Positions 1 through 5,641 of a stretch of 5,641 nucleotides of DNA are shown here, piece by piece. The stretch's first letter is position 1. Every line of letters begins with the position of its first letter. Below the pieces are notes generated by a model. The model made no database searches. It was given only the letters and a program-made list of their open reading frames with translations, and had not been told where the DNA came from. The DNA is from Thermococci archaeon (GTDB taxonomy: Archaea > Hadarchaeota > B88-G9), in NCBI GenBank assembly GCA_003660555.1, contig QMUK01000075.1, positions 1 to 5,641 of the forward strand, written 5' to 3'. The position numbers and the translations under genes were made by a program.

Positions 1-945
1 CATCCTGAAAGCAACCGAGTAAGAGAAGAAGAAAAACAAGGATGAGTATATCAGGAAGAAGTATTTCTTAACATGTATTTCCCTAAACATACTTGCCAAT
101 CCGAATATCCATGCGAATAATGGTAATATAGACATGTAATAAAACATACCAGCAACTAGGGGCTTCTGAAATGCTACAGATCTACTCTCCCCTCCGATAC
201 TCGATAAAGTACTCAAGAGACCTTCTATAGTGCCCACCATGTTCCCGTGGAACATCCAAGGACAAATGCTCAGATATAACAGAGAGCCTATTGAATAACC
301 TAGGACAGTAGATGATATCAAGGAGATGGGAATCCGTATCTCGAAGTACATAACATAGTATCCAATTGAAAAAGTGAGAATTAGAAGATAAACTAGAATC
401 CAAGACTTGTGGGAAAAGGAATGAAGTCCTAGGAGGGATGCGAGAAGTATAGACAACCAAATCGTATCTTTTTTGTTCTCGGAGTGAAGGAGTCTGAGTA
501 TGACTAGGATCTCGGCAGATATTAACAATATGGACAATGAATCAGGTCTCAAGTAGGAATTAGTATACGTCAGATCCAGAGGTATCACCGAAAAGAAGAA
601 TCCGGCTATTATTCCCAATCCCCTTTTCAATTTCTCACCAATTTGGTACATTAAGACCGTCGTTAGGGCACCAAGGATAGATGACACTATCGGTGAGTAC
701 TTCTCTCCAAATAAGTAGATGAATGAAGCTATTACGAAGTGAAATAGTGGAGGATAATCGTGTAACGTCCCGTAGAAATGATATGGATTGTAGGTGGGTA
801 TTCCTTCGCTTAGGATCATCTTAGACACGTAAACGTGATAATATGGATCTATTCCGTAATGGCTTCCAGGAAATCTCAGCATGAATGATAATCTCAAGGA
901 AAGAGATAGCGAGAATAGGAGAATTACCCAATGAAATCTCTTCAG
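1..945 (-). CDS. Multi-pass GT-C glycosyltransferase, STT3/AglB-like, C-terminus cut by window edge
   Basis: An uninterrupted frame of 315 codons runs off the left edge. The product is strongly hydrophobic, with several predicted membrane spans (about residues 5-24, 65-80, 85-101, 108-127, 138-153, 161-200, 206-227, 264-286, 295-313). After the first span comes GIDPYYH (residues 31-37), the place and form of the first acidic metal-binding motif of GT-C enzymes, then aromatic, proline-rich loop text (about 50-68). RPD at 133-135 may be a second acidic site. STT3/AglB oligosaccharyltransferases and PMT-type mannosyltransferases share this layout; they transfer lipid-linked sugar to protein outside the membrane. 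I favour STT3/AglB-like, but the C-terminal WWD-type motif lies outside the window. The start is read as CTG at 945: it overlaps the upstream TGA as CTGA, and GGAGG lies 8 nt before it. The next starts, TTG 897 and ATG 882, would remove most of the first membrane span. It is the last visible gene of the pilin operon. Confidence 0.72.
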   Translation of the reverse strand, partial: MKRFHWVILLFSLSLSLRLSFMLRFPGSHYGIDPYYHVYVSKMILSEGIPTYNPYHFYGTLHDYPPLFHFVIASFIYLFGEKYSPIVSSILGALTTVLMYQIGEKLKRGLGIIAGFFFSVIPLDLTYTNSYLRPDSLSILLISAEILVILRLLHSENKKDTIWLSILLASLLGLHSFSHKSWILVYLLILTFSIGYYVMYFEIRIPISLISSTVLGYSIGSLLYLSICPWMFHGNMVGTIEGLLSTLSSIGGESRSVAFQKPLVAGMFYYMSILPLFAWIFGLASMFREIHVKKYFFLIYSSLFFFFSYSVAFRM

Positions 946-1283
946 CCTAACACCCTCCTAGGTATTTCTAGATATACTGTTCTATTGGATTTCTCTAGGC
1001 GAATCCGAATAGTCGTGGAGTTGCATGATACTGGAAGGGAGAAGCACACTTTACCTTTGATTTCGATGGTTTTATTGGCTAATGAGAGTATTTCTCCATC
1101 TTCGGAGAATGAACAGATAGTTACGTCTCTTTTTCCCTCTGAGCACCTCGATGTTTCAGCTAGAAGTATTGACACACCCTCGCTCTTCGGCACATCCAAG
1201 AAGAAAGTCCAAGAGAGAAGTAATAAAAAAGAAATGAGGAGGGTAGCGAGGACCGAGGCTTTGCAGACGTCCTCTGGCTCCAC
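942..1283 (-). CDS. Small single-pass membrane protein with cysteine-rich, sequon-rich ectodomain
   Basis: This encodes 113 aa from a GTG start preceded by AAGGAG, 8 nt away. The stop of pilin 2 lies 4 nt upstream, and its own TGA overlaps the glycosyltransferase start. Residues 9-29 form one hydrophobic segment after a short acidic N-terminus; the remaining roughly 84 residues look beta-rich and are probably extracellular. The ectodomain has four cysteines (47, 57, 80, 87), enough for two disulfides, and three N-x-T sequons (NKT 70-72, NST 88-90, NRT 100-102). There is no class III pilin signal, so it is not an ordinary pilin. I do not recognise the family. Position between pilins and a glycosyltransferase suggests a glycosylated pilus accessory, anchor or tip protein; this is inference. 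A plus-strand open frame covers the same DNA but lacks comparable support. Confidence 0.75.
   Translation of the reverse strand: MEPEDVCKASVLATLLISFLLLLSWTFFLDVPKSEGVSILLAETSRCSEGKRDVTICSFSEDGEILSLANKTIEIKGKVCFSLPVSCNSTTIRIRLEKSNRTVYLEIPRRVLG
951..958 (-). promoter_or_regulatory. Ribosome binding site deciding the CTG start of the glycosyltransferase
   Basis: On the minus strand GGAGGGTG lies inside the last codons of the 113-aa protein gene. GGAGG ends 8 nt before the CTG at 945, the same spacing seen for pilin 1. No ATG, GTG or TTG in the glycosyltransferase frame lies at a usable distance from it. Confidence 0.6.
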
Positions 1284-2336: not shown

Positions 2337-3266
2337 TCAAGCACCAGTGATTTTTCCCACAACGAAAGTACCAACCTTAAACACCACTAAGGAGACTGGA
2401 AGCATCAACATTCCGTACTTGATGCCCTTTCTCATGCTACCGAACCTCATGACTCCCACGCCGAGACCGCCTACTAGGGATTGAATAGCTATGTACCCCA
2501 TTACTATGAGCCGTAATTGAGAATACACCTCATCAGTCAGCCCAGAAATTATTTCTCCCTTGAACAACCCTACTATCCCAGTGGCTATTCCTGCGACTAG
2601 AGGAGCTGCCATAGCGCAGCTAACCATTATGAAGGAGCCCTGCATCATGGTCAGGGCAGCTCTCTCTCTTTGTATCATTTGAATTGCCCTCACGTCCTCT
2701 GCGATAGCATCTAAGACGTCTGCTAACATAGCCCCTCTCCTAATAGCCTCTACTAGTATGTTTATTGTCCTCTCATAGAGAGGAGATCCTATCCTCTTGG
2801 ACATTCCGAGTAAGGCTCTATCTAGGGACCTACCTCTTCTAACTTCCAAGAGAGTTCTGCTTATTTCTTCGGAGAGGGGATCGTATTTCGCATCTACTAC
2901 GTCCTCTAGGGCTACTTCTATGCTACTTCCAGATCTCAGTATAGTGGACATGTGTCTGAATGCATCTGGAAGTACTTTCTCCATTTCCCCAATTCTCTTA
3001 CTTATTATTATGGAGGGCACTCCGGCAGTGATCATGAGATAGGCTAGAAAGAAACCGAGTATTCCGGAAAGTATTGGATTCAGTGGAAAAGAAGTCACTG
3101 AAGCCATAAAGAAAACTAATATTCCAGTGAGAATAGAAGAAAGCAGTGCTATGGTTATGTACTCTGATGGAGTAAGGGCGACCCCCATCCTTCGTAGTTT
3201 CAGCTCTGTACTCCTCTCTATACTGGGAGGAATCACCCTCTCTATTAGTTTGGATATTGTGGGCAT
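2337..3266 (-). CDS. Pilus assembly platform protein, TadC/ArlJ/GspF family (second copy)
   Basis: This encodes 309 aa from ATG, with GAGGGAG just upstream and 9 nt after the preceding stop. Two membrane spans (about 34-56 and 63-87) precede a cytoplasmic helical T2SSF domain (about 95-205) carrying the usual pattern LPDAFRHMSTILRSGSSIEVAL ... RGRSLDRAL ... AIRRGAMLADVLDAIAED, shown here in pieces (99-111, 144-151, 175-191). Three more hydrophobic spans follow (about 207-233, 252-274, 284-305). Proteins of this family sit in the membrane under the growing pilus, contact the ATPase and move pilin subunits. Its partner is the adjacent paralogous platform protein; archaeal Epd pili and bacterial Tad systems likewise use two. 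It ends 16 bp from the convergent regulator gene. There is no strong T-run in the gap, so read-through antisense to the regulator is possible. Confidence 0.92.
   Translation of the reverse strand: MPTISKLIERVIPPSIERSTELKLRRMGVALTPSEYITIALLSSILTGILVFFMASVTSFPLNPILSGILGFFLAYLMITAGVPSIIISKRIGEMEKVLPDAFRHMSTILRSGSSIEVALEDVVDAKYDPLSEEISRTLLEVRRGRSLDRALLGMSKRIGSPLYERTINILVEAIRRGAMLADVLDAIAEDVRAIQMIQRERAALTMMQGSFIMVSCAMAAPLVAGIATGIVGLFKGEIISGLTDEVYSQLRLIVMGYIAIQSLVGGLGVGVMRFGSMRKGIKYGMLMLPVSLVVFKVGTFVVGKITGA
2351..2355 (+). terminator. Possible weak T-run terminator of the regulator gene
   Basis: TTTTT at 2351-2355, 31 nt past the regulator stop, is the only nearby T-run on the plus strand and lies within the end of the platform gene. 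Archaeal termination often uses short T-runs, but five Ts is weak evidence. Confidence 0.2.
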
Positions 3267-3275
3267 TTGACTCCC

Positions 3276-4358
3276 TCAGGCAGTGGGTTCCATTCTCTTT
3301 ATCAGGTACACGAAGTAGAACAGTAACGTTGGAATCAATAACAGGTAGATTAGCGCCAGAGTATCCAGAGACACAGTTAACTGCTTAGCCATAGTAGACA
3401 TTATTAGCACCATTATGAGTGCCATGGTAGGTCCTATTGCATCCAGAAACATGAAGATTAATCCATATGTGTTCAGGGTTTGGGCATAATCTCTTATCTT
3501 CATCCTCATTTCGTATGAGATGTCTTCCGCTAGGGTATACAACACCTCGGATAAATCTCCACCTATCCTCAAGGCTCTGTTTATCTGCCTTATACTTCTC
3601 TTCAAACCCTCCGATTCGGTCCTCTCCCACAACCTCCCTAGGGCCTCCTCTAGGCTCAGCCCTCTATGAACATCCATTATAACTCTTCTCATCTCATCTG
3701 AGAGAGCACCATAGTCGGATTGTGCTACCGAAGTTAAAGCCTCAGTCAGAGCAATTCCGGACTTAAGTTGCGTAGCTATGTGTCTTAGGGCATAAGGCAA
3801 GTTCTTGTTTATCTCCAGGGTCATTTTGTTTATCCTGATTCTCGGAATTATCCTAGTCAGGAAATATCCTAATATGAATCCCAGTCCTCCTCCCATTATT
3901 CCTAGGAGGGGATCTATCAACACTGAGAAAAGTAGGAAAAGTGATGCAGAGAACATTATCCCATTTCCTAACATCAGGGCCACGAATTTAGTTGGCGCAA
4001 TCCTCATGTTCGCCCTGTATAACTCCATTTCCAATCCCGTTATGCCTCTAGCAATTTTAGAGGCAGGACCCAGCAAGGGTCTAAATACAGAGTCGACCAA
4101 TCTCTCTGCAAATGGTCTCTCAAGCTCTATTTTCCTCCACTCCTCCAATTCGAGTTCTTCCTCTTCCTCCTCGACGACCTCTGGGATGAGTTTTGGAGAA
4201 ACTCTTCCAGGTTCTAGGATTCTCTTTATCTCCAGTAGCCTTCCGGATACTACTGCTTTCTTTTTCTTCCTCTCTCCCGCAGATGGGGCTATGAGATCAC
4301 CAATCAAGTTAGCAAGTTTTATTAGACACTCTCCTATGATCTCAAGAGGATTTCTCAG
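3276..4358 (-). CDS. Pilus assembly platform protein, TadB/TadC/GspF family (first copy), probable CTG start
   Basis: From CTG 4358 this encodes 360 aa (343 from TTG 4307). An N-terminal cytoplasmic region has a lysine run (KKKK) and a strongly acidic stretch (EVVEEEEEELELEEW, about 60-74). Two membrane spans (about 125-148, 151-172), a cytoplasmic T2SSF helical domain (about 178-290; LPYALRHIATQLKSG, RGLSLEEAL, RIGGDLSEVLYTLAED) and two closing spans (about 297-320, 330-353) follow. It should form the inner membrane platform together with the downstream paralog and be driven by the upstream ATPase. The start is argued from a 9-nt perfect SD (GGAGGTGAT, 4372-4364) placed 9 nt before CTG 4358; TTG 4307 has no SD at a normal distance. 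With CTG the gap to the ATPase stop is 1 nt; with TTG it is 52 nt. The acidic tract is longer than I would expect for the family. Confidence 0.9.
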   Translation of the reverse strand: MRNPLEIIGECLIKLANLIGDLIAPSAGERKKKKAVVSGRLLEIKRILEPGRVSPKLIPEVVEEEEEELELEEWRKIELERPFAERLVDSVFRPLLGPASKIARGITGLEMELYRANMRIAPTKFVALMLGNGIMFSASLFLLFSVLIDPLLGIMGGGLGFILGYFLTRIIPRIRINKMTLEINKNLPYALRHIATQLKSGIALTEALTSVAQSDYGALSDEMRRVIMDVHRGLSLEEALGRLWERTESEGLKRSIRQINRALRIGGDLSEVLYTLAEDISYEMRMKIRDYAQTLNTYGLIFMFLDAIGPTMALIMVLIMSTMAKQLTVSLDTLALIYLLLIPTLLFYFVYLIKRMEPTA

Positions 4359-4359
4359 G

Positions 4360-5641
4360 CTAAATCACCTCCTTTATCCTCATCTCCTCAGCAATTCTCT
4401 CTAGGACTCTATAGGAGTCCGTATAGTACTCTTGAATCAAATCGTGTACTTGGTGAATGCTCCTCATGTTCTTGATTCTGAGATACTCTATTACTGTTTT
4501 CCTCCTTTCGATCTCCTCTCTTATTTCTTCCCCAGTCATTCCGGCATATTCAGCTATTGCGTTTCTGAGGTGACTTGGAACTCCAGTCTCTACTGTTTCG
4601 TCCAATTTCGGATCGTATCTGTAGATCCTACTAAGTTGGGGTTTCCCACCCTCCATTCCTACGACTTCTGCTACTTCAGTGATTCTCCTTATCAACCCCT
4701 TCCTCCTGTGGTATATCCTAGCTTGCATTATTATCAAGTCTAAAGCAGGTATCATTATTTCTGGCACATCACAGGGAGGATTGATCAACCTAGTTATTGT
4801 TTCATGTGCAGTATTGGCGTGTATGGTGCCCATACAGCCGTCGTGTCCAGTGTTCATTGCAGTGAACATGGTCCTAGCCTCCGGACCTCTTACCTCACCT
4901 ACTATTATCCTGTCTGGCCTCATTCTCAGAGCATTCTTCATTAAATCGTCCATGGTTATTTCTCCTCTACCCTCTATGTTCGGGGGTCTAGTCTCAAATC
5001 TCACCCAGTGTTCCAAGGGAAGTTGAAGCTCTGCGGTGTCTTCTATCGAAATCACTCTCTCCCTTTCCGGTATGAATCCCACTAGAGTGTTTAGGGTGGT
5101 GGTCTTACCGGAAGCGGTACCTCCTGAGACTAATATGTTAGCTGGCTTAACTCCTAGACCATCTACAGCAAGCCATAGGAAAGCTGAGAGATCAGGGCTC
5201 ATGGTCTTGAAATTGACTAAGTCAACTACAGTGAGTGGATCCTCTCTAAACTTCCTTATGGTTATGGTAGGACCATCCAGTGAAACAGGAGGGATTGTGG
5301 CGTTGACTCTACTTCCGTCTGGAAGTCTAGCATCTAGAAGTGGAGTTTGTTGATCAATCCTCCTACCGACTTCTCTTCCAATTTTTTCTATTATGACCAT
5401 TATTTCATCGTCCCTAGAAAACTTGACATTCGTCTTAAGCATCCCATGCTTCCTGTGGTATACATACACAGGTTTCCCAGTACCAATTACCATTATTTCC
5501 TCTAGGTTCGGATCAGAAACTATGAGATCTAGTCTACCGTATCCGATCATTTCCCTGACGGTGTTCTCGACTATGAGATCAACTCTTCCCTTAGGTATAT
5601 CCGGGTACTTAGAGAGCAAAATCCTTCTGACCTCTTCGGAG
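4360..5641 (-). CDS. TadA/GspE/VirB11-type pilus assembly ATPase, N-terminus cut by window edge
   Basis: The frame is open to the right edge, so at least 426 C-terminal residues are visible; archaeal relatives run to about 500 or more. Visible residue 1 is the serine codon at 5640-5638. An N2-type domain precedes the motor: DPNLEEIMV (about 44-52), [16 protein letters not shown] (about 103-118) and GPTITIRKF. Walker A is GGTASGKTT (about 173-181), the Asp box [10 protein letters not shown] (about 197-206), Walker B with catalytic glutamate IIVGEVRG (about 245-252) and the His box [11 protein letters not shown] (about 268-278). The C-terminal helical part (GMTGEEI ... RRKTVIEYL ... IQEYY) is usual for archaeal secretion ATPases. 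All motor residues look intact. It powers pilin extraction and assembly from the cytoplasmic face as a hexamer, by family knowledge. Followed by the two platform genes in one operon; its promoter is outside the window. A TTG at 5619 is internal and should not be taken as the start. Confidence 0.95.
4364..4372 (-). promoter_or_regulatory. Perfect ribosome binding site for the first platform gene
   Basis: GGAGGTGAT on the minus strand, inside the last codons of the ATPase gene, is fully complementary to the common 16S rRNA 3' end. GGAGG ends 9 nt before CTG 4358 but about 60 nt before TTG 4307, so it decides for CTG initiation. Confidence 0.65.

Follow-up and report, generated by a model that had tools for sequence, protein, structure and literature searches.

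The window analysed here, a stretch of 5,641 nt, makes up one entire contig of an archaeal genome that is 91% complete, with 1.295 Mb spread over 150 contigs. On its minus strand lies the gene for a secretion ATPase of the T2SSE/TadA-like type (4360–5641; PF00437, E = 1e-49), whose 5′ end is off the contig. It is followed on the same strand by the gene for a TadC/ArlJ-like pilus platform protein with a T2SSF domain (3276–4358; 360 aa counted from a CTG codon; PF00482, E = 5e-20), which also gives partial matches to the NCBIfam ArlJ/FlaJ and UpsF models, both below cut-off, and then by that for a second platform protein with an ATG start (2337–3266, minus strand; PF00482, E = 7e-17). Again on the minus strand, 1288–1464 and 1461–1652 each encode a small pilin-like protein with a class III signal peptide; the second of these genes probably starts at GTG 1638, which is preceded by GGAGGTGGT, rather than at TTG 1652. 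In tandem with the pilin-like genes is a membrane glycosyltransferase gene (1–945, minus strand; PF13231) that has weak similarity to the archaeal oligosaccharyl transferase STT3 and runs off the contig. A divergent gene on the plus strand (1697–2320) encodes a C-terminal helix-turn-helix and is possibly a regulator of the pilus operon.

The ATPase gene ends, read along the minus strand, with ATG AGG ATA AAG GAG GTG ATT TAG C, directly followed by the CTG of the platform gene (4356–4358, minus strand), so that the ATPase stop TAG (4362–4360) is one base before CTG 4358. The platform gene then reads CTG AGA AAT CCT CTT GAG ATC ATA GGA GAG TGT CTA ATA AAA CTT GCT AAC TTG ATT GGT, with a predicted N-terminus of (M)RNPLEIIGECLIK if it starts at the CTG. 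Within the end of the ATPase gene lies a Shine–Dalgarno (SD) sequence, AGGAGGTGAT (4364–4373, minus strand), that is complementary to the 3′ end of the genome's own 16S rRNA, GATCACCTCCTAA, the partner of TTAGGAGGTGATC. The first-pass annotation had proposed CTG as the start here on the strength of this SD. Its 9-nt match to the 16S end, GGAGGTGAT (4372–4364; 10 nt with the preceding A), is borne out, with 5 nt between its end and the in-frame CTG 4358, or 9 nt when spacing is counted, as throughout this work, from the last G of GGAGG to the start codon. The platform frame is closed by a TGA two codons ahead of CTG 4358, and no ATG, GTG or TTG occurs in it between that stop and TTG 4307 (4305–4307, minus strand). 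This TTG is the choice expected of a standard gene finder, and the earlier remark that it has no usable SD is correct, as the match upstream of it is 2 nt at most.

Genome-wide, ATG, GTG and TTG codons led at 7–9 nt by an SD match of at least 6 bases are found far above background, with a modal spacing of 7–8 nt and some at 9 nt. The 9-nt spacing before CTG 4358, which had been called ideal, is usable though non-modal. We found GGAGGTGAT, the longest SD, 26 times on both strands of 956 kb, and 12 of these 26 sites have ATG, GTG, TTG or CTG at 7–9 nt, the codon being TTG nine times and ATG once.

We counted CTG starts in 956 kb of the 1.295 Mb genome (about three quarters), read in stretches, and took as the reference set the 892 complete open reading frames (ORFs) of at least 100 codons that it contains. 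A CTG was accepted when it had an SD match of at least 6 bases at 7–9 nt, opened a coding frame and faced no competing canonical start; one SD-spaced CTG (in stretch L133) was left out of the count for an ATG two codons upstream. Six clean cases were found: both CTG genes of the window (4358 and 945), CTP synthase, a sodium/solute (SSS) symporter and two secreted proteins. The secreted proteins have signal-peptide-like N-termini when started at CTG, and the symporter gene gains a symporter N-terminus. An ornithine carbamoyltransferase, added by homology, brings the total to 7 of 892 ORFs, or 0.8% (95% interval 0.3–1.6%). The SD-led starts of the sampled genome (for example stretches L034–L134) comprise 113 TTG, 92 ATG, 23 GTG and 6 CTG. 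The earlier interpretation is partly upheld: at least five further genes appear to start with CTG, but at about 0.8% of ORFs, and with a share of SD-led starts not comparable to that of GTG or TTG, "routinely" is too strong a word.

Statistics on the SD by themselves barely separate CTG from other codons. The excess of SD-spaced CTG that had been anticipated is slight over all 5′ regions (6 observed, 4.5 expected) and marginal upstream of the first canonical codon (4 versus 1.37, p = 0.049). It is larger in frames that lack a nearby canonical codon (4 versus 0.35; p = 0.0005, uncorrected for the choice of test) and for CTG with an SD of 8 or more (3 versus 0.68). Several measures were discarded. 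Raw tallies of SD-spaced codons that ignore gene context were too noisy to decide. Coding-potential scores of the segment from CTG to the first NTG were indecisive on account of its shortness, and negative for membrane N-termini. Most homology flags against three genomes (G001, G004 and G032) proved to be noise from wrong frames or extensions. The nearest relatives compared have only the phylum in common with the source genome. One of them (G001, 400 kb) was rejected as a control because its genes showed little SD use in the scan. The control that we used is a single archaeon, G032, in which the same scan returned 89 SD-led canonical starts and no CTG start; each of its four CTG sites lies inside a gene that starts further upstream. 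Its SD-led starts include 6 TTG and 78 ATG.

One alternative is that CTG use in the source genome, though real, does not exceed that of many other prokaryotes, and looks high since gene finders leave CTG out and it is seldom counted. Published figures put CUG at 0.024% of annotated bacterial starts and its output at 0.86% of that of AUG in E. coli (PMC11497404). Prodigal takes only ATG, GTG and TTG (PMC2848648), which biases the 0.024% figure and also agrees with the earlier statement that standard annotation would miss CTG starts; the roughly 30-fold ratio between 0.8% and 0.024% is to be read as an upper guide because common gene finders exclude CTG. The comparison with the control archaeon is non-significant taken alone (p = 0.14). 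Against this alternative stand the complete lack of CTG starts beside 89 SD-led genes in that archaeon, the low output of CUG in E. coli, and the rarity of switches to CUG, at 2 of 61,358 AUG codons in reconstructed evolution (PMC5622118). We regard an ordinary frequency as possible but rather doubtful, and consider it very likely that CTG is a genuine minor start in this archaeon, used by roughly 1% of its genes.

The case for CTG rests on homology, gene by gene. Comparison with relatives appears to force a CTG start strongly in CTP synthase and ornithine carbamoyltransferase, and moderately in the platform, STT3-like and symporter genes. CTP synthase is the strongest case. Its 5′ end reads CTG ACC AAA TAC ATC ATC GTC ACT GGA GGA, the CTG aligns with residue 1 (Met1) of a solved structure (PDB 9kao_A), and the predicted N-terminus from CTG is (M)TKYIIVTGGVMSGLGK; with the next canonical start, an ATG, KYIIVTGGV would be lost. 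The ornithine carbamoyltransferase was picked from a list of weaker SDs together with coding potential and has GGTG at 7 nt from its CTG. This CTG is residue 9 of the frame and the first NTG residue 25; the family match begins at residue 15–17, and residue 10 is the counterpart of Met1 in the archaeal (P. furiosus-type) enzyme 1pvv. The predicted N-terminus is (M)KFARTGK.

For the platform gene, a contig search for relatives of the protein gave one distant Thermoplasmatales match and nothing else. We built a profile and a multiple alignment from 17 homologues from other archaea, trimmed to their own likely starts. The profile aligns with the platform protein from residue 5, counted from the CTG. 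In the multiple alignment the homologues have 10–18 residues ahead of a conserved Gly, which in the platform protein lies 8 residues after the CTG, upstream of both TTG 4307 and a rival ATA at 4322 (4320–4322, minus strand). The profile scores 375.4 bits from the CTG and 372.1 bits from TTG 4307, a gain of just 3.3 bits, and when the 17 residues from CTG to TTG were shuffled none of 500 shuffles reached the native score (best 374.4). An initial reading that put the starts of homologues close to the ATA of EII gave way to these alignments, in which homology extends upstream of that ATA. The starts of the homologues do not fall at TTG 4307, and since they share the CTG-to-TTG segment, the true start is probably upstream of TTG 4307 and of ATA 4322. 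Upstream of TTG 4307 the sole codon with a well-placed SD is the CTG. The sequence, the SD match, its spacing and the homology upstream of the first canonical start are direct observations. Together they make it highly probable, in our view, that the platform gene starts at CTG 4358, as do about 1% of genes in this TTG-favouring archaeon.

A start inside the gene, at ATA 4322 or TTG 4307, would turn the 10-nt SD into a by-product of the coding of KEVI at the end of the ATPase, or into an enhancer of ribosome capture. ATA 4322 does have a fair SD, the 6-nt match TAGGAG upstream of it, and three further genes of this genome have apparently genuine ATA starts. We nevertheless hold an internal start to be improbable: the residues shared by homologues, the aligned Gly included, lie upstream of both codons, TTG 4307 is without an SD, and the SD before the CTG is ten bases long at a usable spacing. 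Errors of sequencing or assembly, or decay of start codons, in a fragmented metagenome assembly (150 contigs, 91% complete) are a very improbable source of the CTG cases, since several unrelated genes, at least two of them for conserved enzymes, retain an SD, its spacing and an intact long frame at CTG, and random consensus errors are not expected to cluster at start codons.

The second CTG start of the window (943–945, minus strand) belongs to the glycosyltransferase gene. Its CTGA overlaps the TGA stop (944–942) of the preceding ORF, and an SD, TAGGAGG (954–960, minus strand), is placed 8 nt upstream of the CTG. A match to TIGR04154, below cut-off, begins at residue 11 of this frame, between the CTG (residue 5) and a TTG (residue 21). 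The first-pass view that the window holds two CTG starts, at 4358 and 945, is most likely right.

For the platform gene we infer initiation at CUG, with Met as first residue and with contributions from coupling and from the A at +4. The 30S subunit would be held by the near-perfect SD within the final ATPase codons, probably together with ribosomes that finish the ATPase at TAG 4362–4360. CUG would be accepted by the initiator tRNA by way of its second and third bases, with the A at +4 as a possible aid, and the protein would begin with Met, not Leu.

The base after CTG is A in all seven starts, against 45% of CTG codons in 5′ regions (p = 0.004), and in 39% of SD-led TTG starts. In three of the seven (CTP synthase, a gene in stretch L035 and the window gene at 945) the upstream gene terminates at the TGA within CTGA; with the start at 4358, coupling to an upstream gene is visible in four, and no upstream gene is seen by score in the other three. 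CTG had been tied to translationally coupled genes, and on these numbers coupling appears common but not required. A pair between the A at +4 and U33 of the initiator tRNA is a possibility. One reading, quite unlikely in our judgement, is that the lineage at class level reads NUGA as a start, with the A+4:U33 pair offsetting the lost first-base pair of TTG and CTG, so that CUGA would be a fourth start signal beside rare ATA and ACG, with standard aIF1 and tRNA. The CTGA pattern is a concrete and testable hypothesis. Termination–reinitiation at stop/start overlaps is known in archaea and bacteria (PMC6728339) and resembles the three CTGA overlaps and the one start a base after a stop, with the difference that the published overlaps are ATGA or TGATG whereas here the start codon is CTG.

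The platform CTG start is very probably a real case of a known kind of event that is unusually frequent in the source genome. Like the minor CUG starts described earlier (PMC11497404), it combines a first-base mismatch with a normal initiator tRNA and a strong SD; what differs is the frequency of about 0.8% of sampled ORFs and the CTGA found in all seven genes. A literature search on CUG starts in archaea found little. The suspected CTG start of HVO_1510 in Haloferax volcanii (PMC8305020) is similar in being a conserved archaeal N-terminus without a canonical start, but it concerns one gene, with an out-of-frame ATG plus slippage as a rival, whereas the source genome has several SD-spaced genes. 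Gene finders that ignore CTG would truncate such genes and clip conserved N-termini in this lineage; the losses would include the signal peptides of the secreted proteins and, in CTP synthase, the first strand together with part of the nucleotide-binding loop. Natural CTG starts in conserved enzymes also provide a test bed for the weakness of CUG relative to GUG and UUG elsewhere.

The stronger and more general trait of this genome is a relaxed initiation, led by TTG and accompanied by strong SDs. As causes of CTG use, a missing aIF1 and an aberrant initiator tRNA were considered and rejected. The genome has one normal-scoring copy of aIF1, and its initiator tRNA has A1:U72, a GGG/CCC anticodon stem (three G:C pairs) and a CTCATAA loop. 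Both look ordinary, so a plainly broken start selection is not the reason. Aeropyrum pernix is rich in TTG starts, and heavy SD-led TTG use is common to archaea of this type and to the source genome; CTG, ATA and ACG starts are not known to belong to the description of such archaea. A GGTG ribosome-binding motif is reported for A. pernix (PMC2848648).

A few ATA and ACG starts look real too. A ZPR1-like gene (stretch L126, minus strand, 0-based index 2219 of the complement) probably starts at an ATA that comes directly after an in-frame TAA and has GGAGG at 7 nt; an in-frame ATG-TAA stands just before the ATA, homology begins at residue 10 and the first NTG is residue 32. An AsnC ligand-binding-like gene (L047, minus strand, index 6954) and the Cbf5 pseudouridine synthase gene (L036, minus strand, index 12467) likely start at ATA as well. 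The Ham1/RdgB pyrophosphatase gene has a probable ACG start (L062:9592-9594), with AGGAGG at 7 nt; its first canonical start comes no earlier than residue 24.
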